From positions 1-50,729 of the IMG/VR virus record IMGVR_UViG_3300008050_000059: a stretch of 50,729 nt of DNA; one strand, written 5' to 3'. Made by a program: the position numbers and the translations under genes. The stretch is from a virus. The notes under the pieces were generated by a model. It saw nothing but the letters and a program-made list of their open reading frames with translations, ran no database searches and had not been told where the DNA came from. Of the stretch, positions 1,767-43,438 are shown one piece after another; positions within the stretch are counted from its first letter, which is position 1; every line of letters begins with the position of its first letter.

Positions 1767-1771
1767 CTTAT

Positions 1772-1800
1772 ATTATAACTTAACTCTATGTCAGTGTCAA
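1772..1800 (-). promoter_or_regulatory. Sigma-70-type promoter, perfect consensus
   Basis: Minus strand: -35 TTGACA at 1795-1800, a 17-bp spacer, and -10 TATAAT at 1772-1777, in a true intergenic gap. It would drive the membrane-protein and ClpP-like genes. Both hexamers are exact matches to the bacterial housekeeping consensus. Confidence 0.85.
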
Positions 1801-1801
1801 A

Positions 1802-2790: not shown

Positions 2791-3146
2791 AAGTCAGGGT
2801 GCTCGCGCGATAGTAGATCAAATATATTTTCTATTTCTCCATCGTTTAAAGCCAGGTCATTCATCATTTGTTTCCCTTCGGTTCTAAGCTTCTTTGATTT
2901 TCCAGTTCTTGGTACGCTTTTCTTTTTCTTTACCTCGTCGATATAGTCTAAGATCCTTTCATCGCCACCAATATATCCATTTACAATGTGCCGAAAGAAA
3001 CCGGCTTGCGTCATTCTTTCATTCTTTAATTTAATGATGAGTTTTGCTTGCTTGTGGTCAGTTATGTCGAAAGCGACCCTTTTAGAAAGGCCTCCATACT
3101 CACCATGTTCTAAACCATCATCATTTCTTTTTTTAACAGTCACCAC
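2787..3146 (-). CDS. Uncharacterised protein coupled to the sigma-like gene, possible co-activator
   Basis: A 119-residue protein starting with GTG at 3146; the next codon, GTG at 3143, is equally possible and would overlap the upstream stop as GTGA. The N-terminal part has a segment like a ribbon-helix-helix or helical adaptor (RVAFDITDHKQAKLIIKL, then TQAGFFRHIVNGYI). A Lys-rich linker (KKKKSVPRTGKSKK) follows, and the acidic tail ends in IFDLLSREHPDL. The hydrophobic-acidic tail beside a sigma-like gene recalls T4 gp33 and gp55, whose C-termini bind the sliding clamp; this comparison is inference. No recognised family. Confidence 0.6.
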   Translation of the reverse strand: MVTVKKRNDDGLEHGEYGGLSKRVAFDITDHKQAKLIIKLKNERMTQAGFFRHIVNGYIGGDERILDYIDEVKKKKSVPRTGKSKKLRTEGKQMMNDLALNDGEIENIFDLLSREHPDL

Positions 3147-9538: not shown

Positions 9539-12500
9539 TTATCCCATTAATCGAAAGTTATATTTAATAGATCTAGTTGAGAACCCCCATTGTTCGTTAT
9601 AATCCAGCCGGCTCATATACGGCCTGTTGATATGAATACGATCTTTTTCAGGTTTTACTCCCCAGCACCTTATCTTAGTTAGTTCGTTGTTAGAATCTAT
9701 CACCTCAAGTATCCAATAAGTCTTTCCATTTTTTGTCTTGCGAGGCACAATTTTTCGAGGTATAAACCAGCATACTTGCAATTCTGGATCAAATTCAGAA
9801 ATAGGTGGAATAAATTTCTCTTTTAGTTTCTCGATCATTTCGGCGCTCATCACAAGGTTCATCGGAAAGATTCCGGTTAAGTCTGTTTTGAACTGAATAA
9901 CTTCTTCTTCTGTAAAGTCACCCTCTGGTTCGTATATTTCCAGATTCTCCAAAAACTTCTTGAGATTTTTTGGGCGCTCTACAACACAGGCACTCCAAAA
10001 ATGCTTTCGGCCAGTGAATCGGTTATCCACCAAATTATCTAGGGCGCCGCCCCTACACAGAGCATCCAGTGCCTTCTTATTGAACTTGCTATATGACACC
10101 CCTTCTCGGAACAACAAATCCTCTGCATTCATAAACGGACGGTTCTCTAATATCTGTTCGATGGCTGACATACCAAGACCCTTGATAGATGTCAGCGGTT
10201 GGATAAGAGTCTTGCCGTCTTCGCTGATCTCCCACACAATACCTGACTTATTAATATCGAGTGGTTCGATCCTAAAGCCATGGCTCTTAGCTGCATTGAT
10301 AGCCTTTTCCTTTCTCTTCTCAGGCTCTTTATCAAGGAATGCTGCGGCCCACTCGCTGGGATACTTCTTCCATAACCAAGCACACTGGTAAGAGATGATA
10401 CTGTATGCTGTCGCGTGGTTCTTAGAAAAACCATATTTAGCGAACCCTGCCATCAAGTCCCAAATCTCTTCTGCTGTACGAATTGACATGCCCTTCTCAC
10501 TAGCACCCTCGATGAACTGCTCTCGAAACTTTAGTAGAAGATGTTCCTTTCCTGTGCCTTTTTTTGTGAGCAGCTTGCGGATCGTGTTACCATCATCTCG
10601 GGAAATATCCTTTCCTATCCTGTGTGTGATCTCGCTGATCTGCTCCTGATAGATAACATGTCCGTAACTCTCCTCTGTGATCTCCTTGAAGATAGGGTGG
10701 TACCATTCAATGGCAGTATGTCCGTCCTTGGCTGCGATATATTGGTCATGGACCTTCGCTGACAACGGACCAGGACGAAAGATAGAAGTCACCGCTGAAA
10801 TCTCTGCGATATTCGTCGGCTTTACGCTCTTACAGAAGTCCTGTGCTCCGTCATTTGTGAATTGGAATGTGCCGGCAAAGTTGCCCTTGTGAAACACGTG
10901 CTTATAAACCGACTGATCGTTCAGGTCTATCACATCTGGGTGTAATTTCTCGTTATAGTAGTTTCGAACCTGTTCGAATGTACATTCTTCTACCCCGTGG
11001 TGGCGACGAAGAATGTGTTCAACGCAGCCTTCGATCATCTTCAGTGTTGAGAGCCCAAGCAAATCGAACTTAATGAAACCCATCGGCTCAAGGTGACGGA
11101 CGTTCTGGCCCTCTGCCCATGGCGACTGGCGCACACCGCCACTGTTGATGAGAGGCATGTTCTCGTTCAGGTTCTCCGATACTAACAGGCCGCCGGCGTG
11201 ACGGCTGCAGCTTCTCACCTGTCCTACAAGCCCCTGAACCCGCTCCTGAACCTCGGGATGTTGAGCCAAGAATGATCTCAGCGATGTAGAAAACTCCAAC
11301 ACCTCTTCCCAGGTTGGAACATATACACCAGCGCTAATACCATGGCGCTGCTTAGCGGGGCCGATGGCCTCGTTCATCATCGCACTGGTTACATTATTGA
11401 CTTCCGAAAATGGAATGTCGTACAATTTTGAAATGTCTTTAATAAGCGACTTCAATTGGAGCGTGTTCCAGTTAGAAATAGGTGCTACTCTGTCTTCTCC
11501 CCACTTCTCGATCAGGCGCTCCTTCAGTACCATTGGTGCAGACACATCTGTATCAATATCGGGATAGTCTGTCGCATCCGATCGTAAGAACCGCTCGAAG
11601 GGCAGAGCATATTTGATGGGATCGATCTGTGTGATCTTTAGCGCATATGCCACCAGCGACCCACACGCACTACCGCGACCGGGGCCGACAAGCATTACTT
11701 CAGCAGCCTCATCCACAATAGCTTTCATCGTGAGGAAGTACTTGCTAAAGCCGCGACTGTCAATAACATCTAGTTCATGCCTAAGTCGCTGAATATACTC
11801 ATCGTTTGTGTGTAGCTTCAGTTCTCGTAGCCCATCAATAGCGTAGCGAACGAGTGCTTGCGTGGCGGTGGCACCTTCTGGCACAACAAAGTCTGGCAGA
11901 CGCACGGTTGTGTCCGGCATAAAACTTTCGATGCGTTCGTGGGCAATCCGATATGTTTCTTCGATGCTCTGTAAAACAAGTTCATCGTCATACTCGACAC
12001 CCTGTGTCTCGGAGTAGTGTTTGTAGCTCTCCCACATTTGATCGCCGTTTTTCGGATAGAGTTCGTAGCCGATCGTATCTACACTATCGGGGATAACGCT
12101 TTTCTCTTCTCCATCATCCTCTTGCTCGGTCTTCCACTTCGGCTTGCCCTTACCTAGCCAACCAAGTTGCTTATATAGTTCTCTATCCTTCCAAGCTTCA
12201 GGATTGGGATAGTGGCTGTCTGCGGTTGAGATCATCTTAAGATCAAACTCTTTTGCAATCTGAATAATGTGCTTGTTGAGTTCGTGTTGCTCAGGAATGT
12301 TATTCCACTGGAGTTCTGCATACCAGCGATCTCCAAAGATCGATTGCATCTCTATCGTTGTCTCACGCATTGCATCTAAAACCGCTCCAGGGCCGTCATC
12401 GCGGTTCTCCCAGTAGTTTCCAGCGTATACTCCACCTAGACATGCAGAAGCAGCTATAACCCCCTCTGAGTGCTCTCGCAACAGATCATAGTCCATACGC

Positions 12501-12976
12501 GGGTAGCGATAGAAATACTCCTCGGTATAACTCTTAGACACCATTTTATACAGGTTATTTAGTCCTGTCTGGTTCTGTGCCAACAAGATAAGATGGCGCC
12601 GGCGCTTGAGGATAGGTTGTGCGGCTTTTGTATCGCCCTCGTCCTCGGCTGTCGCTCCTGACTGAGCAGATTTCTTGGCTGAGCGTGATTTCTTTTTATC
12701 TGCCATCGCTTCATCATAAGCCGCGCGCCAGTCCTTAACAGACGTAGTGAAGTATGCCTCAACCCCAAAGATGGGTTTGAAGTCTTTGCCTTCTGCCTTC
12801 ATCTTCTTTGCGTGGAGCACCTGCCACGATAGCCCATTCATATTGCCATGGTCTGTTAGTGCTAATGCATCGCCGCCATTCGAATAACAAAAATCCATAT
12901 GTTCTTGCGGGTAACCGATGGCATCAAAAATAGACCCAGCCACACTGTGTGCGTGTAGTCCAACAAATTTAATCAT
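9539..12976 (-). CDS. dnaE: DNA polymerase III alpha subunit (DnaE-type) with PHP domain
   Basis: A 1145-residue family C replicative polymerase, close to the usual bacterial length of about 1160. The catalytic Asp residues are D473 and D475 (PDIDTD) and D638 (FIKFDLLGL), and the nucleotide-binding GPGRGSACGS is at 431-440. The N-terminal PHP domain keeps the positions known to bind metals: H8, H10, D18, H43, E73, H128, C179, D253 and H255. An intact PHP can act as a 3'-5' proofreading exonuclease, and no separate proofreading exonuclease is in the window. A charged insertion lies at about residues 90-125. AGGAGAG precedes the ATG, which overlaps the upstream gene by 8 nt. Confidence 0.95.
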   Translation of the reverse strand: MIKFVGLHAHSVAGSIFDAIGYPQEHMDFCYSNGGDALALTDHGNMNGLSWQVLHAKKMKAEGKDFKPIFGVEAYFTTSVKDWRAAYDEAMADKKKSRSAKKSAQSGATAEDEGDTKAAQPILKRRRHLILLAQNQTGLNNLYKMVSKSYTEEYFYRYPRMDYDLLREHSEGVIAASACLGGVYAGNYWENRDDGPGAVLDAMRETTIEMQSIFGDRWYAELQWNNIPEQHELNKHIIQIAKEFDLKMISTADSHYPNPEAWKDRELYKQLGWLGKGKPKWKTEQEDDGEEKSVIPDSVDTIGYELYPKNGDQMWESYKHYSETQGVEYDDELVLQSIEETYRIAHERIESFMPDTTVRLPDFVVPEGATATQALVRYAIDGLRELKLHTNDEYIQRLRHELDVIDSRGFSKYFLTMKAIVDEAAEVMLVGPGRGSACGSLVAYALKITQIDPIKYALPFERFLRSDATDYPDIDTDVSAPMVLKERLIEKWGEDRVAPISNWNTLQLKSLIKDISKLYDIPFSEVNNVTSAMMNEAIGPAKQRHGISAGVYVPTWEEVLEFSTSLRSFLAQHPEVQERVQGLVGQVRSCSRHAGGLLVSENLNENMPLINSGGVRQSPWAEGQNVRHLEPMGFIKFDLLGLSTLKMIEGCVEHILRRHHGVEECTFEQVRNYYNEKLHPDVIDLNDQSVYKHVFHKGNFAGTFQFTNDGAQDFCKSVKPTNIAEISAVTSIFRPGPLSAKVHDQYIAAKDGHTAIEWYHPIFKEITEESYGHVIYQEQISEITHRIGKDISRDDGNTIRKLLTKKGTGKEHLLLKFREQFIEGASEKGMSIRTAEEIWDLMAGFAKYGFSKNHATAYSIISYQCAWLWKKYPSEWAAAFLDKEPEKRKEKAINAAKSHGFRIEPLDINKSGIVWEISEDGKTLIQPLTSIKGLGMSAIEQILENRPFMNAEDLLFREGVSYSKFNKKALDALCRGGALDNLVDNRFTGRKHFWSACVVERPKNLKKFLENLEIYEPEGDFTEEEVIQFKTDLTGIFPMNLVMSAEMIEKLKEKFIPPISEFDPELQVCWFIPRKIVPRKTKNGKTYWILEVIDSNNELTKIRCWGVKPEKDRIHINRPYMSRLDYNEQWGFSTRSIKYNFRLMG

Positions 12977-17072: not shown

Positions 17073-19040
17073 TTAAAGTGTGCAAGTATCGTTTGTACAG
17101 AATTTAGTGCCATGGCCGGCCTCTTCAGTATCGATGCGTTGGATCTGAACCACTTTCTTTATTCTCTCTTCATATTCTTCTTTCGTTATTGGTTCGTATG
17201 GCGCTTGTTTATATCCGGTTTCTTTGTATTTAAGGAATGATACTGCCTTTAGTCTTGTCTCATATAATTCAAGAGCACTTTTAATTTGGCTTGCCTCATC
17301 ATCTTTGAACGTGATAGTAACAGACACGGCGTTATCGGCCCAATAATGTTGATACTGGGCAGCAATTTCAAGTTGTTCCCACATCGATACATCCCGTTTT
17401 CCTTTGTGAAAATACGGCTCTTTAACAGGAAATTCGACACAAGTAGTATTCGGAGAATATTCATCATCCTCCATAGTATAACCTGCTTCTCTAATACTGT
17501 CAAGTAATTTTGAATCTTTTGAGAACCTAATGCGTCTAATATAGTACTCATCCTCTGGAAAATGGATTCCGGGTGTTGAGCCATTCAACAAGGACACTGT
17601 TCCCGATGGCTTAATAGAAGTTGTTCTGATCGACTTGGGAACACAGAGCCAGTCTGAGTATTCTTTATCAAGCAATTGAACATGCTCATAAGCGTCATCA
17701 CACCACTTTAACATATTGCGTCGGCCATGTTTATTAAACGCCTGTATAATACCAGACTGTGAGAGACCAATGCGGCGGTTCTTCAGCATCATAGCGTTAG
17801 TCTCGGGCCAATGGGTGTTGACCAGTGTAACCGTCTTCCCATATAAATACGCACACTTAAGAGTTTTTAGATAATCATCATATGTCTCGTGCTTCGCTGG
17901 AAACGTCTCCACCAAGCAGCAGCACTCACCATCGTGAAGTTGTTGTTCGGAGCAGGGGTTAAATCCTGCCACATTAACATCATCTAGTCGATCATCATCC
18001 TTGAAGCGGCCCTTGGTCTGTGCGTTTCGCAACCAGATATAGCCGGGCTCTCCGTTCTTCCTGCTCTGCTCTGCGTGCCAAGTGTAGTCCATTCCAACCA
18101 CCGCATTGAATGAGTTGTTGGAGCCCCATCGATGATGATATAACTTCTCCTGATCGTTTTTCATCTCAAGGTAGCGTTTGTCGTCATAGTTCCCCATCGC
18201 TAGTGCGGCCGATCGGCGAACGTTTCCGGCGACTACGCACCGACCGATAAGGTTCTCTGTATCAACAATATCGACCGACGAGATAGGCTCTCCGATCTTA
18301 GAAGCGAAGAGTTCTGTCAAGTTTTCGTGTAGTTCCAGCAGTGGGCCATGTCCTGACGCTGTTCCGCCGAATCCATTAATCTTAGAACCAGGCGGCCGGA
18401 TGGCTGTATAATCAAACTTTGGCACTTTGGTCCCCAAAAAGAAGCCATCGAGAAGGGTATGAACCGAATTGACCCATCCTTCACGGCTGTCATCGATCAC
18501 AAGCGTGTCGCCTGTGTATTCTGGCTCTTTGATGGTAAATGTATTTGCCCCAAGAGTGTCGAAACCAACACCGACACCGAGCATCAATGCGTCCATCATC
18601 CAAGCGAACAGATAGCCGCCCTTGGTGACCAACTCTTTGGTTGAACGAAAGGCACAGTTAAACAATGCAGCTCCAGTTTTTTCTTCCACAAACTTCGTCC
18701 CCATCATCCATAGGCCGCGGCCCGGAGGCGTCCATTTCAGGTTGAATAGGCGATCGTATGCGTCCTTAGCCGTCGTCTGTGCTTTCTGATCGTTCCATCC
18801 GAGCCCCAACATAACAACGTGCTGCTTCTGAACGTTAAACATTCCCTCGATCACACGGCGGCAAGTCTGGTGCCACTCTTCAGTGCCGGTTGCTTGTGGA
18901 TCAAATTCGCTCAGCCGTCTTGAATATGTGCGCTTGTATGTGATGTAGCCGATCGGCCCCCAGGGTACCTCTGCTTTTTTGTACGGCTCGATAAAAGTAT
19001 CTGATAATCTAAATCTGCGTATGTTTTCTATGGTTCTCAT
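17073..19040 (-). CDS. nrdJ: Class II (adenosylcobalamin-dependent) ribonucleotide reductase
   Basis: A 655-residue monomeric reductase like that of Lactobacillus leichmannii (739 residues). It makes deoxyribonucleotides using a B12 radical. Cys residues align with the essential set: C129 (FNCAF), C363 in NPCSEQ with E365, C374 in GECCCLVE, and the C-terminal shuttle pair C648 and C653 (FCTNDTCTL). The 11-residue spacing of the middle pair and the 5-residue spacing of the tail pair match the known enzyme. No class I small subunit or activase is nearby, which fits class II. AAGGAAA precedes the ATG. The thioredoxin-like protein at 4171-4533 could be its reductant. Confidence 0.93.
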   Translation of the reverse strand: MRTIENIRRFRLSDTFIEPYKKAEVPWGPIGYITYKRTYSRRLSEFDPQATGTEEWHQTCRRVIEGMFNVQKQHVVMLGLGWNDQKAQTTAKDAYDRLFNLKWTPPGRGLWMMGTKFVEEKTGAALFNCAFRSTKELVTKGGYLFAWMMDALMLGVGVGFDTLGANTFTIKEPEYTGDTLVIDDSREGWVNSVHTLLDGFFLGTKVPKFDYTAIRPPGSKINGFGGTASGHGPLLELHENLTELFASKIGEPISSVDIVDTENLIGRCVVAGNVRRSAALAMGNYDDKRYLEMKNDQEKLYHHRWGSNNSFNAVVGMDYTWHAEQSRKNGEPGYIWLRNAQTKGRFKDDDRLDDVNVAGFNPCSEQQLHDGECCCLVETFPAKHETYDDYLKTLKCAYLYGKTVTLVNTHWPETNAMMLKNRRIGLSQSGIIQAFNKHGRRNMLKWCDDAYEHVQLLDKEYSDWLCVPKSIRTTSIKPSGTVSLLNGSTPGIHFPEDEYYIRRIRFSKDSKLLDSIREAGYTMEDDEYSPNTTCVEFPVKEPYFHKGKRDVSMWEQLEIAAQYQHYWADNAVSVTITFKDDEASQIKSALELYETRLKAVSFLKYKETGYKQAPYEPITKEEYEERIKKVVQIQRIDTEEAGHGTKFCTNDTCTL

Positions 19041-19045
19041 TATGT

Positions 19046-20422
19046 TTATTTCCTTTTTCTAAACTTCTCGTATTTATTTTGTAGCAAACCCCGTTGCGCT
19101 TTCGGTGTCAATGTGACTGGGTTTAGCGGGATTAAGCCGGCTGGTCCGGATGGTGTCAGTTTTGGCATTATCTTAATATTCACGCACGAGGTGTCCATGA
19201 ATATATCGTATATCATGCCGTCTGGCCCATTTCTATTTTTTGCTATGAATATTTTGCCTAGATTGTTTTGTTTATCTTCGATGCTGCGAGACACCGAGAA
19301 GATGAAGTCGGCTACAAAACATTTATTGAATGCTTCCGAGATCTGTTCCATTGTGATAACTTCCGCATTAAGGCCGCTTCTGTTTGTTTGTGAAGCTGTC
19401 CACACAGGGCACCCATATTCTGTTGAGACCCCACGTAACTCTTCATAGATAGATTCCAACTCGGCTCTCTTCTCCTTGCGAACCACGACCGGTCTTAATA
19501 AGTCTGCGTAATCCACAATTATCATATCAGGTTTTATCCCTCTCTTTAACAACTTTGTTAAATGAGTTTTGATAGTTGCGGTAGAGGCTGATTTAGTTGG
19601 ATACTCTTTGATGATAAGTTTTCCACCAATATTTTTAACCATCTCATAGATCTCGTCCTTAAAGTTTGGTAGGTCATTGAGTGGGTAGCCGGTCAGACAA
19701 CTATCATAACGCCCAGCAATTACTGTTGATTGTAGTTCCATTGTGTAATGAACTACCACCTTGTTTTCTTTGAGCCCCTCTGATCCAAGATGGACCAAAA
19801 CCATGCTCTTTCCGGCGCCCGTGGGGGCGATTACAACTCCCAACTCGCTCTTGCCTAGGCCTCCACCGCAAATGCTATCCATATCCTTCCAGCCGGTGCT
19901 AACGGGGTGTCTGAACTTGGGCACGAAGCGCTCTTCGAAGTCTGCTAGGTAATCATAACCAAAATTGTTGTCTGAGCCGAGTTTAAGTGAGTTGTTGATG
20001 ACATTTGAGATTTCATCAAATGAGCAAGTTTGAAGCAACCCAACTGATTTTAACATCGCTTCTTTGAGGTTCTGCTTTCGGCAAAAGTCGAGCGATTGTT
20101 CTTTAATATATTCTCTGTCTGTGAGTTCTTTCTTTAATATTCTCGCGTAGTATTCTCTCACCTGTTGCCGCACGACTTCGTCTTCGTTGTCGAGATCAGT
20201 GCGAAGGGTGGTGATGATTGCTTCGGCAGACGGGTGCTTGCTGTATCTATCTCTGTATTTTATGATCTTATCGACGAATACACGAAGGTATTCGAGTTCC
20301 AGAAATTGAATATCGAGCACTTCAGTAATTTGATCAGCAAAGGGGCGGTCCTCATAAATGAGTTGAACGAGCCCCTCTTGGAACGATTTACCGTAGCGCG
20401 AAAAGCTTGCTTTTTCAGACAA
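19046..20422 (-). CDS. Replicative DNA helicase (DnaB / gp41 type)
   Basis: A 458-residue hexameric 5'-3' helicase. The RecA-like motor begins near residue 176 (STGWKDMDSICGGGLGKSEL) with Walker A APTGAGKS at 199-206 and Walker B IIVDYADLL with D304; ASQTNRSG and the C-terminal arginine region follow. The N-terminal 170 residues are helical, as in DnaB-type collars. The start is TTG at 20422 behind GAGGTGA. A sigma-70-like promoter lies just upstream. Primase is not in the window. It would work with the DnaE polymerase at the fork. Confidence 0.92.
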   Translation of the reverse strand: MSEKASFSRYGKSFQEGLVQLIYEDRPFADQITEVLDIQFLELEYLRVFVDKIIKYRDRYSKHPSAEAIITTLRTDLDNEDEVVRQQVREYYARILKKELTDREYIKEQSLDFCRKQNLKEAMLKSVGLLQTCSFDEISNVINNSLKLGSDNNFGYDYLADFEERFVPKFRHPVSTGWKDMDSICGGGLGKSELGVVIAPTGAGKSMVLVHLGSEGLKENKVVVHYTMELQSTVIAGRYDSCLTGYPLNDLPNFKDEIYEMVKNIGGKLIIKEYPTKSASTATIKTHLTKLLKRGIKPDMIIVDYADLLRPVVVRKEKRAELESIYEELRGVSTEYGCPVWTASQTNRSGLNAEVITMEQISEAFNKCFVADFIFSVSRSIEDKQNNLGKIFIAKNRNGPDGMIYDIFMDTSCVNIKIMPKLTPSGPAGLIPLNPVTLTPKAQRGLLQNKYEKFRKRK

Positions 20423-20481: not shown

Positions 20482-21450
20482 TTAGGTGACTGAATTGATC
20501 TTATTCAGGTGAAGTTCGAGGTCTTTCCAGTTTAATTCTCCGAACCCATCGTCTCTCATATTTTTCATTATCTCTATCTTGTTGAAAACACACTCAAAAT
20601 TTTCAACTGCGTTTTGAACGAAGTCTTTTGATTGAATCGAAAGCATCGGAGAATAAAGTTGCATCATCTTATAATTGTGAGCTATAATTTCTTTGCCCTC
20701 GACGATGTTCGTATGAAACTTTAACTTTGAGCCTGTGTTCTCACAATATTCGATCACATCATCAATCGTATAGTCTTTGTCCGAGCCCAAGAAGCTCAGT
20801 CGCTTCTCGATTGTTTTAAAACCCACACCCTTAATGCCTGGTAAATTGTCGGACGAATCGCCGATCAGGGCTCTTGCAAGTGCCATATTTCGTGGATGGA
20901 CGCCAAGCTCCTCAACGATCTTCTTCTTATTATATACTGCCTTTTTAACAGGGCGAAACACAACAGTTTCGTCATCGCACAGTTGATAGAAGTCTTGGTC
21001 GTTCGATATGATCACCTTCTGCCAGCCGTCATAGTGCGATAGATGAGTAAGGTGTGCAATCACGTCATCTGCCTCTACCTCTGGGAGCATTATTTGAATG
21101 ATAGGCATCTCATTCAAATATTCCATCAGGCGCATTTGCTGCCATACCTTGTTTTTCATTTCCTCATCTTCTGTGAGGTTCTTCACACTCCGATTTAGGC
21201 GGATTGGCTTGCGGCCGGCTTTGTAGTTCTTATTAATAGCCTTGCGCTTGTTTGAGCCGCCAGGACCGTCCCAGATGAATACGATCTCATCGGGCTTTGT
21301 CTCCCTCACTAGCTTTTGAAGGATTTTTAGTGTCCCCTTAATGCCTCCACACGGATTGCCACCCATTGTTAGGCTGGGGTCCATGATATATGCTCTAATA
21401 AACATATTCAGGCTGTCTATTAACAACACTCTTTTCTTTTTATCGCTCAT
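20482..21450 (-). CDS. 5'-3' exonuclease / flap endonuclease (Pol I N-terminal or T4 RNase H type)
   Basis: A 322-residue 5' nuclease that removes RNA primers and flaps. Metal-binding segments are visible in order: LLIDSLNMFIRAY (9-21), FIWDG, EADDVIAH, SNDQDFYQL, and the helix-hairpin-helix GDSSDNLPGIKGVGFKTIEK. In cellular Pol I this domain is fused to the polymerase; here the polymerase is a separate gene at 25568-26752. GAGGTA precedes the ATG, which overlaps the upstream small gene by 11 nt. Confidence 0.92.
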   Translation of the reverse strand: MSDKKKRVLLIDSLNMFIRAYIMDPSLTMGGNPCGGIKGTLKILQKLVRETKPDEIVFIWDGPGGSNKRKAINKNYKAGRKPIRLNRSVKNLTEDEEMKNKVWQQMRLMEYLNEMPIIQIMLPEVEADDVIAHLTHLSHYDGWQKVIISNDQDFYQLCDDETVVFRPVKKAVYNKKKIVEELGVHPRNMALARALIGDSSDNLPGIKGVGFKTIEKRLSFLGSDKDYTIDDVIEYCENTGSKLKFHTNIVEGKEIIAHNYKMMQLYSPMLSIQSKDFVQNAVENFECVFNKIEIMKNMRDDGFGELNWKDLELHLNKINSVT

Positions 21451-22158: not shown

Positions 22159-23286
22159 TTACTCTGGATCGTTATAGAAATCTTCCGCGTTGCCTTCGCG
22201 CTTGTCAAACTTTTGAACAACCTCTTCATCCATTAATTGGACAATTCTATTCCTAAACTCTTCATCAGTCTTGATAACCTCCGCCCATCTAGATGGTTGG
22301 AACTTCTTTGTATAACCATCCGGCATTTCTAATGTATACCACGAACCGGCACATTTTAAGAACTCAGAACCTTTGACTGCATCCAGCCATGACTCTTCAT
22401 CGTTGATGCCCACATCCTCTGTGCCCCACAAAATGCGGAAGGCACAGTTTCGTCCTTGGGTGCCAAAGCGCGACTTCTCGATCTTTGCCTTGACCTCTGA
22501 TCCGATGCGAAAACCCTTATCATCTTCAACAAACGCTGACTTTGCTTTTCGCCCTGTCAGCCAGATGCGTAGTGAATATGAATAGTGGAGGGCTTTGCCG
22601 CCCGGGGTCATATAGGGTGTTGTCATCGCAATAATGCGTGCATTTGGGCCTGACGGTATATTAGTTTTCAATTGATTGAGAACCAGTAATGTTGCCTGCT
22701 TATCTGCAATAGGGATCACCAACTTAGACATGCCCTTCGCAAGAATACGTGCTTTCACTGCCATCGATGACTGAGGGTTGAAGTCTCCTTCAACGTCGGA
22801 TACTGACGGTGTGAATGCGAGAGAGTCCCAGATAAACAAAAGCTGATCATCCGATGCTCCCAACAATTCTTCCACGGTCTCCAGTACAAACTCCACAGAG
22901 GTTGCCTGGATATACATTAAACGGCTTAGGTCGCATCCTGCGCGTTCTAAGAAGTCAGGATCGATAGCCGACTCTGAATCAAAGTATACAACTATCTTGC
23001 CCTGCTTCTGGGCATTTGCGGCGATCTGAGCCGCCATATATGACTTACCCGTGGAGGTGAGGCCAGCAAGTTCGGACACCTTACCGACGGGGATGCCGGC
23101 TACTTGTCCTTTACAGATAATACTATCAAGCCATCGAGATCCTGTCGAGATCCACTCTTTGACCTCTGTTGGATTCTCGCCAGTTAGGTCGTGTGCGACA
23201 TGTCTGCCGGCCTTCTTATTAACAAGACTCATTAAGTCTTGCATTGATACGCGACCAGCTTTGGTTTCTTTTGCTTTTTTAGCCAT
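22159..23286 (-). CDS. RecA/UvsX-like recombinase
   Basis: A 375-residue strand-exchange ATPase. Walker A is GLTSTGKS at 75-82 after KVSELA, Walker B is LLFIWDSLAF with D154, and YFDSESAID (101-109) holds the catalytic Glu. The L2-type DNA-binding area follows LLVLNQLKTNI. The C-terminal part is acidic. In T4-like phages this protein drives recombination-dependent replication together with the gp32-type protein. The ATG overlaps the upstream stop by one base (TGATG); no clear ribosome-binding site is seen, so translation is probably coupled to the Hc1-like gene. Confidence 0.93.
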   Translation of the reverse strand: MAKKAKETKAGRVSMQDLMSLVNKKAGRHVAHDLTGENPTEVKEWISTGSRWLDSIICKGQVAGIPVGKVSELAGLTSTGKSYMAAQIAANAQKQGKIVVYFDSESAIDPDFLERAGCDLSRLMYIQATSVEFVLETVEELLGASDDQLLFIWDSLAFTPSVSDVEGDFNPQSSMAVKARILAKGMSKLVIPIADKQATLLVLNQLKTNIPSGPNARIIAMTTPYMTPGGKALHYSYSLRIWLTGRKAKSAFVEDDKGFRIGSEVKAKIEKSRFGTQGRNCAFRILWGTEDVGINDEESWLDAVKGSEFLKCAGSWYTLEMPDGYTKKFQPSRWAEVIKTDEEFRNRIVQLMDEEVVQKFDKREGNAEDFYNDPE

Positions 23287-23544: not shown

Positions 23545-23793
23545 CTACTCTGTCGTAGTTGTAGCGGTCGTGGCGCCAGTTGTGGTTGTGGTCTCTGGTG
23601 AGGCCGCGGTCTCAACTGGTGTTGTGGTCGTCGTTGCAGAAACCTCAACAGCATCTGTCGGGCCGGTCGCATTTGTCGAAACGGCCTCCGGATCAACTGA
23701 ACAAGTCCCGTATGCGGTCGCAACGACTAATACGCCACCCACCACACTAACATGGACTTTCCATTTGGCCCATAACGATTTTAACAATTCCAT
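23545..23793 (-). CDS. Small membrane protein with Thr-rich tail
   Basis: An 82-residue protein. The ATG at 23793 was chosen because AAGGAGA lies 5 nt before it. Residues about 13-32 form one hydrophobic helix (HVSVVGGVLVVATAYGTC), which may be an uncleaved signal anchor; Cys after GT does not make a good lipobox. The remaining 50 residues are almost only Thr, Ala, Val, Glu and Pro with runs of up to five Thr. No family recognised; a spanin-like or membrane-tethered role is possible. It lies between two similar terminator hairpins, apart from its replication neighbours. Confidence 0.6.
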   Translation of the reverse strand: MELLKSLWAKWKVHVSVVGGVLVVATAYGTCSVDPEAVSTNATGPTDAVEVSATTTTTPVETAASPETTTTTGATTATTTTE

Positions 23794-23817
23794 AACATCT
23801 CCTTTTCGTATAGAATA

Positions 23818-23846
23818 ATGCGGCACCCATTTTATGCCGGGGTGCC
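23818..23846 (-). terminator. Terminator-like hairpin after the ssDNA-binding protein gene
   Basis: Minus-strand stem GGCACCC / GGGTGCC (7 bp, 11-nt loop) followed by GCATTATT. The T-run is weak. It lies 30 nt after the stop of the ssDNA-binding protein gene and would let that gene form its own short transcript. Confidence 0.55.
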
Positions 23847-23875: not shown

Positions 23876-24643
23876 TTATTTGTTTGCCATTAGTTCGTCA
23901 AACGCTCGGTCCACATCATTCTTCTTGCCACTGCTATAACGTGTTGTTTCCGTCGAGCGGGACTCGGCGCTTCCATCGCCGGCTAATTGCTCATCTAAGA
24001 TTGCATTGATTTGCTCTGGAGTTTGGCGCTCGAATAGAGAGTCAATGTCTGGCATGCTATCAAGGAGGGCAGCGATAGCGTCCGTGTCCTCCAAGAGCGA
24101 GGAAGTGTTTCGACGCATCTTTAGGTTTGTTTGGGGGTATGCACCAGGCTGTGTGGGCTTGGTGTATGTGAGAGAAATGTCAGTTCCCTCAAGAGTATCG
24201 GTAATATCACCGTAATCTGGATCCAGAATGTATCCAAGAAGGTTCTCATAGGCACGCTTACCGTAACCATAGATCTTGATTCCTTCATCTTCTCGGCCTC
24301 GCACCACTACTGGTGAGAAGAACCGGTTGCGAACAAAGAGTGACTTAGCAAGCTTCTTGCTCTCTTCATCGTTGGTGCTTGTGCCTTCCTTCCAGAGTGC
24401 GGATGCGAACTCGCAAATCGGGCAGTCATCGCCAAAGTTGCGCTTGGGGCACACAATGCCGCCGCGGTGGTTTCCCACGTTATAGTGGAAGTACATCTCC
24501 TTAAGAGGATCTCCATCTGGTGATGGCACGATCCGAATATCTTGATCTCCTTCATCGGGTTTAAACCAAACTGATTGTTCCCTTGTTCCCTCACCACGTA
24601 GTGTGGCAAGCTTCTTTCGCATTAGTTCCATGTTAATTGACAT
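23876..24643 (-). CDS. ssDNA-binding protein (gp32-like)
   Basis: A 255-residue protein organised like T4 gp32. A basic N-terminal arm (residues 1-22) is followed by an OB-fold core with an embedded zinc motif (C65, C74 and C77 in CPKRNFGDDCPIC, with H59 nearby). The flexible C-terminal part, from about residue 185, is rich in acidic and small residues and ends DVDRAFDELMANK, the type of tail that docks replication partners. AAGGAGA lies 8 nt before the ATG. A consensus promoter lies upstream and a hairpin downstream. Confidence 0.87.
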   Translation of the reverse strand: MSINMELMRKKLATLRGEGTREQSVWFKPDEGDQDIRIVPSPDGDPLKEMYFHYNVGNHRGGIVCPKRNFGDDCPICEFASALWKEGTSTNDEESKKLAKSLFVRNRFFSPVVVRGREDEGIKIYGYGKRAYENLLGYILDPDYGDITDTLEGTDISLTYTKPTQPGAYPQTNLKMRRNTSSLLEDTDAIAALLDSMPDIDSLFERQTPEQINAILDEQLAGDGSAESRSTETTRYSSGKKNDVDRAFDELMANK

Positions 24644-24698: not shown

Positions 24699-24727
24699 AA
24701 TGTAACACTCTTAATCTACTATGTCAA
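24699..24727 (-). promoter_or_regulatory. Sigma-70-type promoter for the ssDNA-binding protein gene
   Basis: Minus strand: TTGACA at 24722-24727, a 17-bp spacer, and TACATT at 24699-24704. The -35 overlaps the last codons of the tubulin-like gene. The leader can form a short CTGAG/CTCAG hairpin. Confidence 0.7.
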
Positions 24728-25571
24728 GAGTTTTTTGTTGTTTTTGTATCGTGTTTGTGTGGGCCACGACGTACCCAAAATCATTGTGTGGGGTTTCATA
24801 GATCGCGTATGAGATCTTACGAAATGCGTTTGTTGGCTTCTCTTTTAAAATGCTCACTAGTTTCCTATGTAACGACCCTTCTGTCGCCAACCTTTCCTCA
24901 TTTACACATATATAATAACATAATTCACGCTCGGTGTCAAGCTGAAAAAGCCAATTTTCTTGAAGATTCTTTGGGTTAAGCACCGCCATGCTGCGAATTC
25001 TGTTTATTTCTGAGGGCTTGGCGACTTGGCCGATTTCCGGCTCTGAGTGGGTAAAATAGTTGAGATAATGAACTGCCGAGAAAATGGCAGCGTTGATGGT
25101 ATCATAATATGATTTGATTGGGACGTCACCCAGAGTTCTCTCGATCTCCAAATTAGAAAACACTGTAAATGATTCAAAAAGGCCTGATCGCGCATACTCC
25201 TGAAGAACACCAAATGTTGTATTTTCAATGAGACTCCTTTCGCCATTTACAAGTTCGATATCAGGCTTCACATAAAACACCTCAAGCTTCTTGTGGCTCA
25301 TTTGCTCTAGGATCCCAAGAGAATAGTTGGAACTATATGTTGTACCAACAATAAACACCTGAACTGTATCTTTGAGTTCCTTAAAGAAAGTCTTCAGATC
25401 TGGGATACTCTTTTCATATTCTTCTGGGGTTTCAAACTTCTTTAGTTTCCGCTTTCTTTTACTATTCTTCTTAATCGTGTTATTCAACTCATATACATCG
25501 TATTGAGTGATGTCGCCAAACTTGCGAGCAATAGCAGAGGCGCCTGTACCTATTCCTACAATTGAGATCAT
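24711..25571 (-). CDS. Divergent FtsZ/tubulin-like protein with degraded nucleotide loops
   Basis: A 286-residue protein that I read as a remote FtsZ/tubulin-superfamily member. The N-terminus (ISIVGIGTGASAIARKF, 2-18) matches the first strand, Gly loop and helix of FtsZ. VQVFIVGTTYSSNYSLGI (70-87) sits where the GGGTGTG signature would be. LEVFYVKPDIELVNGERS to ARSGLFESFTVFSN (96-140) follows the FtsZ pattern from VVTRPF to IPN. AFRKISYAIYETPHNDFGYV (249-268) fits the C-terminal domain. The signature loop and the T7 catalytic Asp residues are missing, so GTP hydrolysis is doubtful. It overlaps the polymerase gene as ATGA. Alternative: an unrelated Rossmann-type protein. Confidence 0.5.
   Translation of the reverse strand: MISIVGIGTGASAIARKFGDITQYDVYELNNTIKKNSKRKRKLKKFETPEEYEKSIPDLKTFFKELKDTVQVFIVGTTYSSNYSLGILEQMSHKKLEVFYVKPDIELVNGERSLIENTTFGVLQEYARSGLFESFTVFSNLEIERTLGDVPIKSYYDTINAAIFSAVHYLNYFTHSEPEIGQVAKPSEINRIRSMAVLNPKNLQENWLFQLDTERELCYYICVNEERLATEGSLHRKLVSILKEKPTNAFRKISYAIYETPHNDFGYVVAHTNTIQKQQKTLDIVD
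24912..24940 (-). promoter_or_regulatory. Intragenic sigma-70-like promoter
   Basis: Minus strand: TTGACA at 24935-24940, a 17-bp spacer, and TATTAT at 24912-24917, inside the tubulin-like gene. It may add transcription of the ssDNA-binding protein gene. Confidence 0.45.
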
Positions 25572-26752
25572 AGAACCAAATTATCCAAATCGTAATAATT
25601 CTGGCCGGCCTTTAGATTCACCTCGAACCTTCCGAGTCGATTTATAGCGAACGCTTCTTTAATTTCTTTAATCATATCTCTATCTTCATCAGCAAAATCA
25701 ATGACTATCTCATCATGTACAATATGTGAGATAAACGTTTTTTTGCCCTCCAACATTTTGTCAATTTCTATTGCTCTCTCGATCACAAGGTCTGCGGTAG
25801 TGCTTTGAATTAGGTAATTCAGTGCCTTCCAGTCGCTAACTTTGATATTGCGTCCGAATACAGTAGTAATATATTCACCGTCATAGTATCTGTCAAGTAC
25901 TTTTTTGCGATCATAGTGATTAGTTTTAAGATCTGGTGAATCTGGGTTATATAGCCACGCGAAAAACATAGTTTTTGCTTCTTCCCTGTGCATGTCTGGG
26001 TTTTTAAAAACATTAACGATATTCCAATTATGAATGTCGTCTTCAGGCTGATGTTGCTCGGAAAGCGCCAGCACGGTGCGGGCCTCCGCGCCGTTATAGT
26101 CCATGGATATAAACCAGTCATTATGTGGCTTTATAAGGCGTCTCAGTTCCCTTTTCATGGTTAAGATAGGGAAAGACCCACATTGTGTTGTAAGACGTCC
26201 TGTAATGGTACCAAAGAGGTTATAATTAATATAGCGAGCACCAGACATTATCTTCTTTGAGGCATTGCGTAAATTTGTGCTTGTGAATAGGCTGCGACAG
26301 TCTGAACTGTCTAATTTTAGATCCTGGTACCTTATCTTATACAGCAGCTTTTCTGCCCCAACCAGATAATCATAGTTTTTTGGTTTCTCGGTGTTCTCAA
26401 AAATATGTTCTGTGATTCTGTTTTTAACGTCGCATAGGCGAGATAGAGCATCGTGTGGCACCAAGTCGAAAAAGCAGTGTTCCCGTAAATCTATCTTTCC
26501 AATCTCAAATGACTTCTTATACGCCTGCAGCCTCCTTGATATTTTCGACCATTCCTCTTTTATAGATTCTGGGCATGCCTCCGCGATAGTCTCGCCTTGG
26601 GCATAGATCCACGCATACTCTACATCGGCGCCGTAGTCGGCAGAGGGTCGCCACGTTCGGGTTAGATTGGTGGGAATGTCGTCAAAGTGTAGGTTTCCAT
26701 CAGCATATACGCCAACGCATTCTTGCTTGTCGTCAAGTGTTTGAAAATACAT
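25568..26752 (-). CDS. Family A DNA polymerase lacking the exonuclease domain
   Basis: A 394-residue polymerase domain of the Pol I family. Motif A is MDYNGAEARTVLALS with D218, the O-helix is REEAKTMFFAWLY with K260 and Y268, motif C is HDE at 346-348, and TGRLTT at 184-189 binds the primer-template. There is no 3'-5' exonuclease domain and the 5' nuclease is a separate gene. The size is small for the family. With DnaE present, it may fill gaps, finish Okazaki fragments or act at origins. The ATG overlaps the upstream stop (TAATG), and a promoter lies 30 nt upstream. Confidence 0.88.
   Translation of the reverse strand: MYFQTLDDKQECVGVYADGNLHFDDIPTNLTRTWRPSADYGADVEYAWIYAQGETIAEACPESIKEEWSKISRRLQAYKKSFEIGKIDLREHCFFDLVPHDALSRLCDVKNRITEHIFENTEKPKNYDYLVGAEKLLYKIRYQDLKLDSSDCRSLFTSTNLRNASKKIMSGARYINYNLFGTITGRLTTQCGSFPILTMKRELRRLIKPHNDWFISMDYNGAEARTVLALSEQHQPEDDIHNWNIVNVFKNPDMHREEAKTMFFAWLYNPDSPDLKTNHYDRKKVLDRYYDGEYITTVFGRNIKVSDWKALNYLIQSTTADLVIERAIEIDKMLEGKKTFISHIVHDEIVIDFADEDRDMIKEIKEAFAINRLGRFEVNLKAGQNYYDLDNLVL
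25868..25896 (-). promoter_or_regulatory. Intragenic sigma-70-like promoter
   Basis: Minus strand: TTGACA at 25891-25896, a 17-bp spacer, and TATATT at 25868-25873, inside the polymerase gene and about 300 nt before the tubulin-like gene. Confidence 0.45.
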
Positions 26753-27942
26753 TAGTCCGCCAGGATTTCTCGTCTTCTAATAATATAGTTGATTGCGCCT
26801 CGATAGTCAAGTGTTTTGTTGATAATTCTTTCGAAAGAGTCTAAAGCTGTGTTCAAATCAAGCCGTGCGATATCGATACACTCGTTGATCAGGCGCAGCT
26901 TCTCACCATCGGTAAATCTTGATTCTTCTTCATAAAATCTAATATTGCAGTATAACTCCAAAAAATATAAATCATCATATTTTCTAAGAAATTTATCCAG
27001 TGTATATTTAACAGGAAATATTGTTGTTGGCGACACTTTCCCTTCGCTACAGTGGTGGGCTATATATGCCCTATCTTCCATAGACTCACTATAAACCCGA
27101 AACATCAAATCTTTAAACACACTAAGATAGTTTCTATGAGCCTTCTTATATGCAACATTTAAGATGTGGTCGGTTGTGGGCAGTCCATACACAGAAGAAT
27201 ATTCTAACGTTGATGGGCCGGCAAGATCTGCTACAATTCGCCATGGCATGTGCATATCAACCATGAACCCATATGAATTACACGCATTTAGATAAAACTC
27301 CCAGTTTGGGCTAGCCACAAATTGTTTTATTTTTTCTAGATCGTTATCTGGCTTTAAGTCAGCAACCTCGATAGCCAAGCCGGATGCATTAATCGGGCAA
27401 ACGCGACTTTTAACAAAGCCGGGGAAAGTGAAGGGCTCAACTTTACATATAGTCTCCAGCATGGGCAGCAGCTTCAAAATAAATTCATCAAAATTCATGG
27501 CCGGCGGCGATGCATGTTTAATATTCTCAGACAAGCTCCTGCTGATCTCCAAGATATGGTCTTTATACAGTTTTCTGGGGTTCTGATATGCTTTGTGGGC
27601 TTTTAGTTTGGACAGGTGTGTGTCCGATGTATTTATTTTGCCTGATAGGGCACATTTATCGAATTGTTGGGATAGTTTTTCAAATGCATCCACCACAAAG
27701 TTTAGCGCCGATAAGGGCGACCGGGAATCTGCAGATGATGCAAGACTTCTTAGTTCCACATCTCCAGATATGATTATTGGTTCAAAGTGTCGATTAGCTC
27801 TACCGTACATTCTCTTTTCTGCAAATTCGAAATCCATTAAATTTGTGTATTTAAAAGAACCTAATGTAGATAAATATACCATCTTTTTATAAAACAATTT
27901 TCTGCTTGTTTCTTCGTTGCTTTCTATAAAACCTATTGACAT
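26752..27942 (-). CDS. Conserved uncharacterised protein at the border of virion and replication genes
   Basis: A 396-residue, mostly helical soluble protein. Visible segments are an aromatic N-terminal region (FYKKMVYLSTLGSFKYTNLM), SPNWEFYLNACNSYGFMVDM near the middle, PWRIVADL, and a C-terminal helical bundle rich in EEESRFTDGEK. No enzyme motif is evident. I know the family only as a conserved protein of marine T4-like phages. Its place after the big baseplate gene suggests a virion component, but its 3' end carries a promoter for the polymerase. AAGGAAAA precedes the ATG. Confidence 0.55.
   Translation of the reverse strand: MSIGFIESNEETSRKLFYKKMVYLSTLGSFKYTNLMDFEFAEKRMYGRANRHFEPIIISGDVELRSLASSADSRSPLSALNFVVDAFEKLSQQFDKCALSGKINTSDTHLSKLKAHKAYQNPRKLYKDHILEISRSLSENIKHASPPAMNFDEFILKLLPMLETICKVEPFTFPGFVKSRVCPINASGLAIEVADLKPDNDLEKIKQFVASPNWEFYLNACNSYGFMVDMHMPWRIVADLAGPSTLEYSSVYGLPTTDHILNVAYKKAHRNYLSVFKDLMFRVYSESMEDRAYIAHHCSEGKVSPTTIFPVKYTLDKFLRKYDDLYFLELYCNIRFYEEESRFTDGEKLRLINECIDIARLDLNTALDSFERIINKTLDYRGAINYIIRRREILAD
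26782..26810 (-). promoter_or_regulatory. Sigma-70-like promoter for the family A polymerase gene
   Basis: Minus strand: TTGACT at 26805-26810, a 17-bp spacer, and TATATT at 26782-26787, in the last codons of the upstream gene and 30 nt before the polymerase ATG. Confidence 0.6.
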
Positions 27943-36558: not shown

Positions 36559-39500
36559 CTAATCGTCGAACGATGCGCCGGTCGAAGCAATAACAAAGTC
36601 AATTGCTATAAACTCGATTGCTCGTGCGGGCTTAATCATAATCTTGGCGTATAGGATGTTTTGGTCAATCAAATCAGGAGTTGTGGTTGTTTCATCCAAG
36701 ACTAGTCTGTAATCTGTGATACCATACTCGGTTTTGACATTTGAAAGGAATGGCTCCACTAAGCCCTTAAACCTATCCCACGTTGCTTGAACATTTTGTT
36801 CGAAAAGTATCTGTGAAGAAATTACAGATATCTGCTTCTTCATATGAATTACCAGTCTCCGGACATTGATTCTGTCAAGTGCTGATTTTCTAGCTTGTAA
36901 GGTCTTTTGTCCGAATATTACAATTCCTGTATCAACAAAGTTGGCAATTGGATTGATTCTACCCTTATAAAGAGCGTCCCTTTCTTTAGAAGACAACCTC
37001 TCTGAAACACCTGTTACAGTTATTCCAGCAGCGCCATTTGATAAGCTTCCGCGGTTGTATCCGGCGGCTGAGAACCAAACTTGTGTTTTTCTCTCTGAGC
37101 TACCTAACACTCCCAAAGCGGCTACGCTTGGCGGAATCCACAGGAGGCGGCCGGTGTTTTCATCTCTTGTTTGGACCCACGGGTAGAATGTTGCGCCGTA
37201 TGATGAGTCGATTCTTCTGTCTTTAAAGTCATTAACTGATTGGACCGGCGTGGTGCCCACTCTTTCTTTCTTCGAAGACTTATAGACTTCGTGAGTCGGC
37301 AAATATATATCTGGTAGGTCGATCAGCGCCATGCTGTCGCCGCGGGCCTCACAAGTTGTAATCATATGTTCTGTTAAAGTGGCTTGTGTGAGGCCGGGTG
37401 CTGTCAGTACATTCATGTCAGTAACTTCTGGATCCGAGATCGTGTCGATTGCACGTTTCCAGGTGTGATATGCGTAGCTTGTGTCTTCTGTGGGAGATGC
37501 CCCTCTCCATTGCTCATTATAAAGCGGATCGGGCTTCTGGATGTCGAACCCATCGGCGCCACCCCAGAACGGGGCCGTAAATCTATCAACTCCATTGTTC
37601 AATATTGAAGTGTAGCTAGCTGAGGTTGCTGATGCTTCTGCTTGGCGCGAGCCAGAGTGATAGATATATCCATTTGCTCCGGATACAATGTCATCTAAGG
37701 AGAAGATATATGACCAGGCTTTAACGCCGGCTACACCATCAACGTTGGCTACAGCACCATCGGTGCCGGCCGTTGGATCTACTGGGAAGTCTGCGTACAA
37801 CAGACGGTGCCAGTCGATTACGGATGCGTCAGGAATAGAATTCGCTGCTGTGCGTGTCGTGGACCAACCCCAATATGCATCTTTTGTGTCGGATAATCCT
37901 CCGGCACTGGCAGATATGCGAAGTCTGTCTTTCGGGAAGTGGATGGATGCGGTTGCTGCGGAGATACCGATGCCTCTCATATCATCTTCACCTAATCCGA
38001 CATCCGCATGCAGACACCTAATACCGACAAAAAATTGAGTATTAAGTAGGCCGGCCTGGGTGGCTGTGGGTGGCTTGCCCTCAAAAGCTATGAGATCGTA
38101 GTCGGCAGTACCCCCATACCGAGAAATGCCGGCGGCAAGCATGCTGGCGCTGGACTGGAGAAATTGGCCACTAAGATCAGTAGTTACTGACGCCGTGTGA
38201 ACCGGGGCATTCCCAGGAGGACCAAAGTAGCCAAACGGCAAGCAAGTCGGATCCGTTGCGGCAGAATCAACTTCTGGGTTGATCTCTACATATACAAATT
38301 TCGATAGATTTGGATATTCTCCGTATTCTTTCAATATCTTTGCTGTGGGATCCCATGATTTGTATTTGTCTCCGATCTTGCGCGCAATGAAGCTCGGACT
38401 TGATGGATCGAGATTGCAGCTGTCGAATCTCTCTATAACTTGTACGGTGTTGTCGGTATCATTGACATTCCGGAGAACTACCGAGAAAGTACCGTAATCG
38501 GTTACTGTCGAGTTGGATGCGCGGATCTTTTCGATCGAAACCTTCACGTTCTTGTGAAGCCACTCGCCATGGCCGCGGCCTTTGAGTCTAAACAGTTTTT
38601 GCTGATTCTTAGCGTCGTAACTGGTGGGATTTCCACTCAAGTCTTGGCCAATAAACCAACCAGCAACTGCCTCTCTAGAGGCTTGTGCTTTCATGTTTTG
38701 GGGGCCAACACCAACAGAGCCACTCTTCGCGATACCAAGAATAACTCCTTGAAGTGTCGTAGAATCATCTACGCTAAGGTCTCTTAACTCTTGTTCGAAC
38801 GTTTCACCAAGCCAGACATCTTCTGTTGAGCTTGCGGGGAAGAATGCGGCCGCAGTAGAAAGCAACTGCGGATTTGTATTGACCCGCTTGCGAATAAACT
38901 TGTCGCTACTATCATCAAAATTAAACTTGATTATTCGGGTACCCTTGTTAGAGCCGGATACAACAAGATTAAACAAGCCATCACTATCCATCCCAATTAC
39001 TACGCCGGCGGCGTTTATGGTGTCATTTACAAGACTGCCGGTTTGTGTCCCGGCACCAGTGCCGGTACCGATAGTTCTAGCAGACCCTCTAAGTTGCATG
39101 GAACCAGAATTCATATAAAATACCGCAGCTAAATTAAGAGCGTTCGTAGTCCACGAATCTCCCACCAGATTAGCAGTTGAACCGCTAGCACACACAAATA
39201 GTCCATAGGCGCCACCCATCTCCCCCGGGATTGTACTTGGGTTGTTTGTGGTCTTCCAGCCTGCTGCTGCGTCTCCGCCGGCGTCGGATCCGACGGTCGT
39301 TTGCTGGCCTAGAAGGCGGACATAAGTAAGGGGGGCGACTCCGGACCTCAAGAATGCATTTGCTGCATATGTCCCGTACATCGGAGATGAGTAGTTTCCT
39401 TTCCTATATACATCGTCATTGGAACCACCGGGGACCGTGTTACCGAACATATCGATAAATTCTGAATATGAATTGACCTTTACTGGTTGCATCGCCAATC

Positions 39501-39621
39501 CGCGCGATGAACGGCCCATAACTGTGGGGCCGATGGCTTCCGCTATGTTGGGAATTCCGGAGTTATCGATTTCGTGAATAAAAACGCCCGGCGATATAAA
39601 CTTAAAGCTTTTGACTGACAT
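36559..39621 (-). CDS. Tail sheath protein A (gp18-type)
   Basis: A 1020-residue contractile sheath protein. The N-terminus SPGVFIHEIDNS and the C-terminal domain (YPWVQTRDENTGRLLWIPPS, INPIANFVDTGIVIFGQKTL, then RAIEFIAIDFVIASTGASF) are typical of gp18-family subunits that contract to drive the tube. It is longer than T4 gp18 (659 residues) because of extra domains in the middle. It is a paralogue of the gene at 40271-43354, with long identical stretches at both ends. AAGGAAA precedes the ATG. Confidence 0.93.
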   Translation of the reverse strand: MSVKSFKFISPGVFIHEIDNSGIPNIAEAIGPTVMGRSSRGLAMQPVKVNSYSEFIDMFGNTVPGGSNDDVYRKGNYSSPMYGTYAANAFLRSGVAPLTYVRLLGQQTTVGSDAGGDAAAGWKTTNNPSTIPGEMGGAYGLFVCASGSTANLVGDSWTTNALNLAAVFYMNSGSMQLRGSARTIGTGTGAGTQTGSLVNDTINAAGVVIGMDSDGLFNLVVSGSNKGTRIIKFNFDDSSDKFIRKRVNTNPQLLSTAAAFFPASSTEDVWLGETFEQELRDLSVDDSTTLQGVILGIAKSGSVGVGPQNMKAQASREAVAGWFIGQDLSGNPTSYDAKNQQKLFRLKGRGHGEWLHKNVKVSIEKIRASNSTVTDYGTFSVVLRNVNDTDNTVQVIERFDSCNLDPSSPSFIARKIGDKYKSWDPTAKILKEYGEYPNLSKFVYVEINPEVDSAATDPTCLPFGYFGPPGNAPVHTASVTTDLSGQFLQSSASMLAAGISRYGGTADYDLIAFEGKPPTATQAGLLNTQFFVGIRCLHADVGLGEDDMRGIGISAATASIHFPKDRLRISASAGGLSDTKDAYWGWSTTRTAANSIPDASVIDWHRLLYADFPVDPTAGTDGAVANVDGVAGVKAWSYIFSLDDIVSGANGYIYHSGSRQAEASATSASYTSILNNGVDRFTAPFWGGADGFDIQKPDPLYNEQWRGASPTEDTSYAYHTWKRAIDTISDPEVTDMNVLTAPGLTQATLTEHMITTCEARGDSMALIDLPDIYLPTHEVYKSSKKERVGTTPVQSVNDFKDRRIDSSYGATFYPWVQTRDENTGRLLWIPPSVAALGVLGSSERKTQVWFSAAGYNRGSLSNGAAGITVTGVSERLSSKERDALYKGRINPIANFVDTGIVIFGQKTLQARKSALDRINVRRLVIHMKKQISVISSQILFEQNVQATWDRFKGLVEPFLSNVKTEYGITDYRLVLDETTTTPDLIDQNILYAKIMIKPARAIEFIAIDFVIASTGASFDD

Positions 39622-43354: not shown

Positions 43355-43412
43355 GTTTTTTTTTCCTTCACTCGTTTGATGGGCACTATTGTGGTCTTTA
43401 GTGTTGTCATAA

Positions 43413-43421
43413 ATAAGTAGT
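43413..43421 (-). promoter_or_regulatory. Candidate late promoter element ACTAYTTAY
   Basis: Minus-strand ACTACTTAT lies 58 nt before the sheath B start and follows the inverted repeat at 43439-43476. Confidence 0.5.
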
Positions 43422-43438
43422 ATTTTTATGCTCAAACG

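Follow-up and report, generated by a model that had tools for sequence, protein, structure and literature searches.

The window analysed here is an IMG/VR virus record of 50,729 bases. The open reading frame under study, located at positions 24711-25571 on the minus strand, starts with an ATG codon and encodes a protein of 286 residues, which is referred to as ptub. The sequence-only reading had placed this gene in a replication block, between a polymerase gene and the gene of a single-stranded DNA-binding protein (SSB), and this placement is conserved in about 180 loci, with the polymerase upstream and the SSB downstream. The features of the block in the window are as follows.

19046-20422, minus strand: DnaB-like replicative helicase (phrog_19, E 2e-67)
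20482-21450, minus strand: 5'-3' exonuclease (PF02739, E 5e-30)
22159-23286, minus strand: UvsX/RecA recombinase (PF00154, E 3e-33)
23876-24643, minus strand: gp32-like single-stranded DNA-binding protein (PF08804, E 3e-16; phrog_1192)
24711-25571, minus strand: ptub, 286 aa, predicted degenerate member of the tubulin superfamily (AlphaFold, Foldseek/VIA, IMG/VR relatives, dN/dS)
25568-25571, minus strand: ATGA overlap, in which the TGA stop codon of polA overlaps the start codon of ptub
25568-26752, minus strand: family A DNA polymerase (PolA), 394 aa (PF00476, E 6e-16; motifs A (DYNGAE), B and C (HDE))
26752-27942, minus strand: 396-aa protein of unknown function, the stop codon of which overlaps the polA start

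Ptub is a real gene, since it has hundreds of relatives in viral contigs, a low dN/dS ratio and a fixed gene neighbourhood. A search with the single protein returned 37 relatives in viral contigs, with identities of 46-98% overall, while a profile search yielded 517 candidate stretches in such contigs, and a search around a distant member yielded 100. Where measurable, dN/dS against close relatives was 0.045-0.085; the gene is thus under strong purifying selection and gives no hint of an arms race. The viruses that carry it form a large group of uncultured marine myoviruses of bacteria, of ~190 kb. Outside this group, a search of 50,697 records of named phages found no relative, and neither did one of the cellular species genomes of GTDB. 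The protein had no match in Pfam, PF00091 and PF13809 included and even up to an E value of 10, and none in PHROGs or among the PDB sequences, nor did its profiles find any there; it matched none of the PHROG and Pfam models of phage tubulins, and a profile search of the PDB sequences found no tubulin.

The AlphaFold2 model of ptub, built from an alignment of 24 sequences, reached a pLDDT of 80.9 and a pTM of 0.81. When it was searched against the PDB with Foldseek, FtsZ, TubZ and CetZ were matched with E values down to 2e-11, and alignment by VIA-align 2 to CetZ, TubZ, FtsZ and eukaryotic tubulins gave Z scores of 19-22 over about 253-269 of the 286 residues, the alignments spanning residues 1-281 of the model and hence both domains. 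In a viral structure library, the model matched a phage 'FtsZ' (E 2e-11), the PhuZ of phage Noxifer (E 9e-7) and other phage tubulins. The secondary structure elements follow in the tubulin order, namely S1/H1 (strand 2-7, helix 9-16), S4/H4 (strand 69-75, helix 81-89), S5/H5 (strand 95-102, helix 110-129), S6 (strand 134-139) and a long H7 (helix 155-175), after which just a three-residue helix precedes the strand 191-198; the C-terminal sheet is present. The tubulin fold suggested from the sequence was therefore recovered by structure prediction and fold search, with no confident match to any other family, and ptub almost certainly adopts the two-domain tubulin fold predicted by the model, with a Rossmann-like GTPase domain, a long H7 and a C-terminal mixed domain. 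Profile-profile comparisons of ptub with FtsZ, PhuZ and the canonical phage tubulin described below were not significant, so the kinship rests on the predicted fold; the short local matches that they contained fell in T6-H7 with FtsZ and in T1 with the canonical phage tubulin.

The motifs from which the fold had originally been suggested are all found in the protein, i.e. GIGTGASAIARKF (residues 6-18), GTTYSSNYS (residues 76-84) and the C-terminal sheet, and the counterpart of the FtsZ segment VVTRPF...IPN is FYVKPD...FSN (residues 99-104 and 138-140). Residue conservation in the nucleotide pocket and the catalytic loops was counted over 84 dereplicated ptub sequences. The elements concerned lie at the following positions.

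25533-25556, minus strand: T1 loop, residues 6-13 (GIGTGASA); Gly6 in 83/84 sequences, Gly8 in 84/84
25320-25346, minus strand: T3/T4 place, residues 76-84 (GTTYSSNYS), in place of GGGTGTG
25152-25157, minus strand: T6 place, Ser139-Asn140, putative counterpart of the guanine-contacting Asn; Asn140 in 83/84
25092-25106, minus strand: start of H7, residues 156-160 (YDTIN), with the putative base-stacking aromatic residue and base-contacting Asn
24999-25046, minus strand: T7/H8 region, residues 176-191, lacking DxxD and with H8 almost missing (model, alignment)

The T3/T4 place, which lies between the model strand 69-75 and the helix 81-89, carries neither GGGTGTG nor GGGTGSG in any of the 84 sequences, and a pattern of its own, G-x-x-x-S-S/A-N-Y, is conserved there instead (Gly76 84/84, Ser80 74/84, Asn82 79/84, Tyr83 76/84), which bears out the claim that GTTYSSNYS replaces the tubulin signature. 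The further claim that the nucleotide loop is lost holds for this signature, but not for the rest of the pocket, where Gly6, Gly8, Asn140, the aromatic residue 156 (Tyr in 45 sequences, Phe in 37 and His in 2, thus Tyr/Phe in 82/84) and Asn160 (84/84) are nearly or fully invariant. We take Asn140, residue 156 and Asn160 to correspond to the guanine-contacting T6 Asn and the H7 aromatic and Asn residues (N206, Y224 and N228 of tubulin); these equivalences derive from the order of the elements and from a low-scoring profile alignment rather than from superposition, the best local alignment with E. coli FtsZ pairing SFTVFSN...YDTIN with SLITIPN...FGAAN. Likewise, T7 indeed has no DxxD, but it is not wholly devoid of acidic residues: residue 188, aligned by eye to D212 of FtsZ, is Glu or Asp in 73 of the 84 sequences and non-acidic in the other 11, whereas residue 185 is Lys or Arg in 67; with a mostly acidic residue at 188, some catalytic role is conceivable. 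Judging from these counts, the phosphate and catalytic loops of ptub have probably changed and the base pocket has not. As the base-binding residues seem to be retained, ptub more likely binds a nucleotide without turning it over than fails to bind one; it may plausibly be a pseudo-GTPase, and the protein probably does not hydrolyse GTP.

The coupling of ptub to polA was surveyed in 188 loci. PolA lies directly upstream in 170 of the 170 loci with room for it, and the gp32-like SSB lies downstream in 177 of 178. The start of ptub has the form NTGA in all 184 checkable loci (ATGA in 168, GTGA in 14 and TTGA in 2), and a polA frame of 390-400 codons terminates at the overlapped TGA in 150 of 151 loci, the effective sample being smaller than these counts because near-identical contigs are among the loci. 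This stop-start overlap, conserved throughout the loci, is by its sequence an arrangement of translational coupling. The two proteins have also diverged to a similar extent between clades, with identities at the far end of 46.7% for ptub and 52.5% for PolA. The polymerase itself is only 23-27% identical to those of named phages. Two short genes intervening between polA and the SSB gene in the Flavobacterium phage immuto were considered as possible relatives of ptub and dropped, as no resemblance was seen by eye. The 396-aa protein upstream of polA evolves fast, and its stop-start overlap is found in most loci; it was considered as a missing part of the polymerase, an idea that was dropped after searches of PHROGs, Pfam and the PDB sequences had given no match.

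Several other genes of the window are recorded here as observations. The product of a small candidate ORF between the SSB and RecA genes (23545-23826, minus strand) is hydrophobic at its N-terminus and rich in Thr in its tail; another frame, which may instead be the coding one, overlaps this ORF. The gene at 17073-19040 (minus strand), a further member of the replication block, encodes a B12-dependent ribonucleotide reductase whose best relatives among named phages are those of actinobacteriophages (Mycobacterium phage Gaia, 45.5%), which gives a weak hint as to the host or the origin of the gene. Besides the 394-aa family A polymerase, the window encodes a DNA polymerase of 1145 aa (9539-12976, minus strand; phrog_405, E 1e-228), so that two different DNA polymerases seem to be present in this phage. 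Two very large tail sheath proteins of 1020 and 1054 aa (36559-39621 and 40271-43435, both on the minus strand and both phrog_23) possibly form a two-component sheath. Finally, an IMP dehydrogenase/GMP reductase family protein (3140-4171, minus strand; PF00478, E 2e-103) could shift the guanine nucleotide pool of the host.

A second tubulin of about 380 aa was detected with PF00091 in two long ptub-bearing contigs of 189.7 and 195.5 kb, scoring 39.4 and 34.9 bits with the Pfam Tubulin model, the cut-off of which is 33. This canonical tubulin keeps the T1, T4 and T7 motifs (GVGGGGN, AGGGGGTGSS and SFDSKD) as well as YPVAN, and its profile search of the PDB returned FtsZ at an E value of 1e-8. 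Its AlphaFold model is poor (pLDDT 57), so its identity relies on Pfam and the motifs; the Foldseek matches of the model are still FtsZ, CetZ and TubZ. Viral contigs yielded 174 relatives of this tubulin, the 50,697 named phage records none. Both tubulin genes were found in 9 of the 21 long contigs examined, these being all nine that are long enough to show both, and in each of them the canonical gene lies about 39-44 kb upstream of ptub on the same strand. By their coordinates, each of the other 12 stops before or just at the place where the partner is expected (just at it in one contig, G004), and for our window the partner is expected near 65 kb, past the window end. In one 195 kb contig the distance between the two tubulin genes is counted through the ends of the contig, a sign that it may be circularly permuted. 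In L099 and L100, two of the sequences that carry the canonical gene, it lies at 1042-2184 (minus strand) and at 1297-2448 (plus strand), respectively, and in L100 an ORF similar to SbcC/gp46 is directly upstream of it; the N-terminus of the protein is extended by a conserved acidic stretch of about 65 residues (EDFGMVEDFGLQMEY). The Microcystis phage Mel-JY01 and immuto were tried as possible tubulin carriers and dropped, since PF00091 finds none in them; the A3 search of these two phages was empty, with no positive control alongside.

Ptub resembles FtsZ in its two-domain fold over nearly the full length, its T1 glycines, its T6 Asn and its H7 aromatic and Asn residues, and differs from it in the lack of GGGTGTG and of DxxD in T7, the near absence of H8, its shorter length (286 aa), the absence of significant sequence similarity and the coupling of its gene to a DNA polymerase gene. 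Reviews name two kinds of phage tubulins, TubZ and PhuZ (PMC7950403; PMC7824862). PhuZ of jumbo phages, e.g. gp59 of 201phi2-1, is described as an active tubulin that forms dynamic filaments and positions phage DNA (PMC4244570). It shares with ptub a phage-encoded tubulin fold and possibly a role in DNA positioning; in contrast to ptub, however, the phuZ gene of 201phi2-1 does not adjoin a polymerase gene, and the fold match of ptub to Noxifer PhuZ is the weaker one given above. TubZ of plasmids and phage c-st, an active GTPase that belongs, together with TubR and a centromere, to a partition system (PMC7950403), is likewise a tubulin of mobile elements that is linked with DNA, and matches the fold of ptub with a Z score of about 20. 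Compared with these active filament GTPases, ptub would be inactive, as both the signature and the T7 motif are absent. The canonical tubulin encoded in the same genomes shares the YxxxN spacing of the base pocket (YPVAN against YDTIN in ptub) but keeps GVGGGGN, GGGGGTGSS and DSKD, and it is also the more conserved of the two, with a mean column identity of 91% (21 sequences) against 67% for ptub (47 sequences). Divergent Tubulin_2 proteins have been described in prokaryotes (PMC9871819). The pseudoGTPase septins, in which a GTPase cytoskeletal fold has lost turnover while active paralogues persist (PMC10731463), offer an analogy only, as septins are eukaryotic and belong to an unrelated fold family. 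Full-text searches of the literature, with subscription papers and preprints outside their scope, returned no description of either tubulin gene. The tubulin superfamily is known, but we found no earlier account of a phage in which a canonical tubulin is accompanied by a degenerate one coupled to polA.

As the likeliest explanation we propose that ptub is a pseudo-GTPase by which the site of replication is connected to filaments of the phage's own tubulin, a mechanism to which, taken as a whole, we give a probability of roughly 35%. In this mechanism the canonical tubulin would polymerise, and ptub would be made together with PolA through the overlapping stop and start codons, beside the SSB gene. 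Having very probably lost GTP turnover, ptub might still recognise a guanine nucleotide, or use the pocket as a docking face, and might dock through this conserved nucleotide face on an exposed end or side of the filament. Through PolA or SSB it would then tie the replication site to the filament, so that the replicating phage DNA is anchored or positioned. Nucleotide binding, filament docking, contact with PolA or SSB and positioning are all steps that we infer. That ptub forms part of the replisome in a two-tubulin DNA-anchoring system, as an adaptor tying the fork to a filament of active tubulin, is put forward tentatively. As the two tubulin genes lie 40 kb apart, their co-occurrence may reflect no more than a shared place in the core gene set of a single lineage.

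Thioredoxin serves as the processivity subunit of the T7 polymerase, and the tubulin fold of ptub might in the same manner have been co-opted to serve PolA as an accessory or processivity subunit; its synthesis would be tied to that of PolA, and any contact with filaments would have been lost. The NTGA overlap in all 184 loci, the adjoining SSB gene, the like divergence of ptub and PolA between clades and the loss of the catalytic loops would all fit such a subunit; however, coupled adjacent genes are common in phages, such a subunit would have no need of the second tubulin, which every one of the nine long contigs encodes, and there would be no reason for the base-pocket residues to remain invariant. 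We regard this explanation as possible but doubtful. It is unlikely, in our estimate, that ptub instead forms a hetero-oligomer with the canonical tubulin, nucleating, capping or stabilising the filament in the manner of alpha/beta-tubulin or of a pseudoGTPase in a septin filament, with the adjacency to polA setting the timing only. That 9/9 long contigs encode the canonical tubulin and that ptub has pseudo-GTPase features would accord with such a partner, as would the location of septin pseudoGTPases at hetero-oligomer interfaces (PMC10731463). The invariant positions of ptub are also enriched in the presumed top-face (nucleotide-face) loops (16 of 50, P 0.024), an enrichment so mild that it does not separate the functional explanations. 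Yet the two tubulin genes do not share an operon, being 40 kb from each other, and the fixed genomic partner of ptub is polA.

The sequence-only reading had considered both the positioning of replicating DNA and the capping or poisoning of host FtsZ, and the polA coupling together with the second tubulin favours a DNA-positioning or replisome role over an FtsZ poison. Blocking the division of the host is a common phage tactic, and the nearest folds to ptub are FtsZ, TubZ and CetZ, which would suit a decoy that stops division during infection; but ptub stands beside polA and the SSB gene in every locus and not among takeover genes, its strong purifying selection bears no mark of an arms race, and the phage lineage carries a tubulin of its own, all of which makes such a decoy improbable. 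Least probable of all is an active, unusual GTPase that self-polymerises, with the SSNY loop binding phosphate anew and Glu188 replacing D212 of FtsZ, as the conserved Gly76, Asn82, base-pocket residues and mostly acidic residue 188 would allow, but with residue 188 non-acidic in 11/84 sequences, the other T7 Asp position mostly Lys or Arg, and H8 nearly absent.

The phage tubulins known so far, PhuZ and TubZ, are active filament-forming GTPases. If the proposed mechanism is true, a two-tubulin anchoring system is widespread in the sea, and none of the named phages whose records were searched has it. In ptub, a replication machine would for the first time have a tubulin-fold component tied to it, and ptub would provide a natural experiment on what a tubulin is capable of without turnover.
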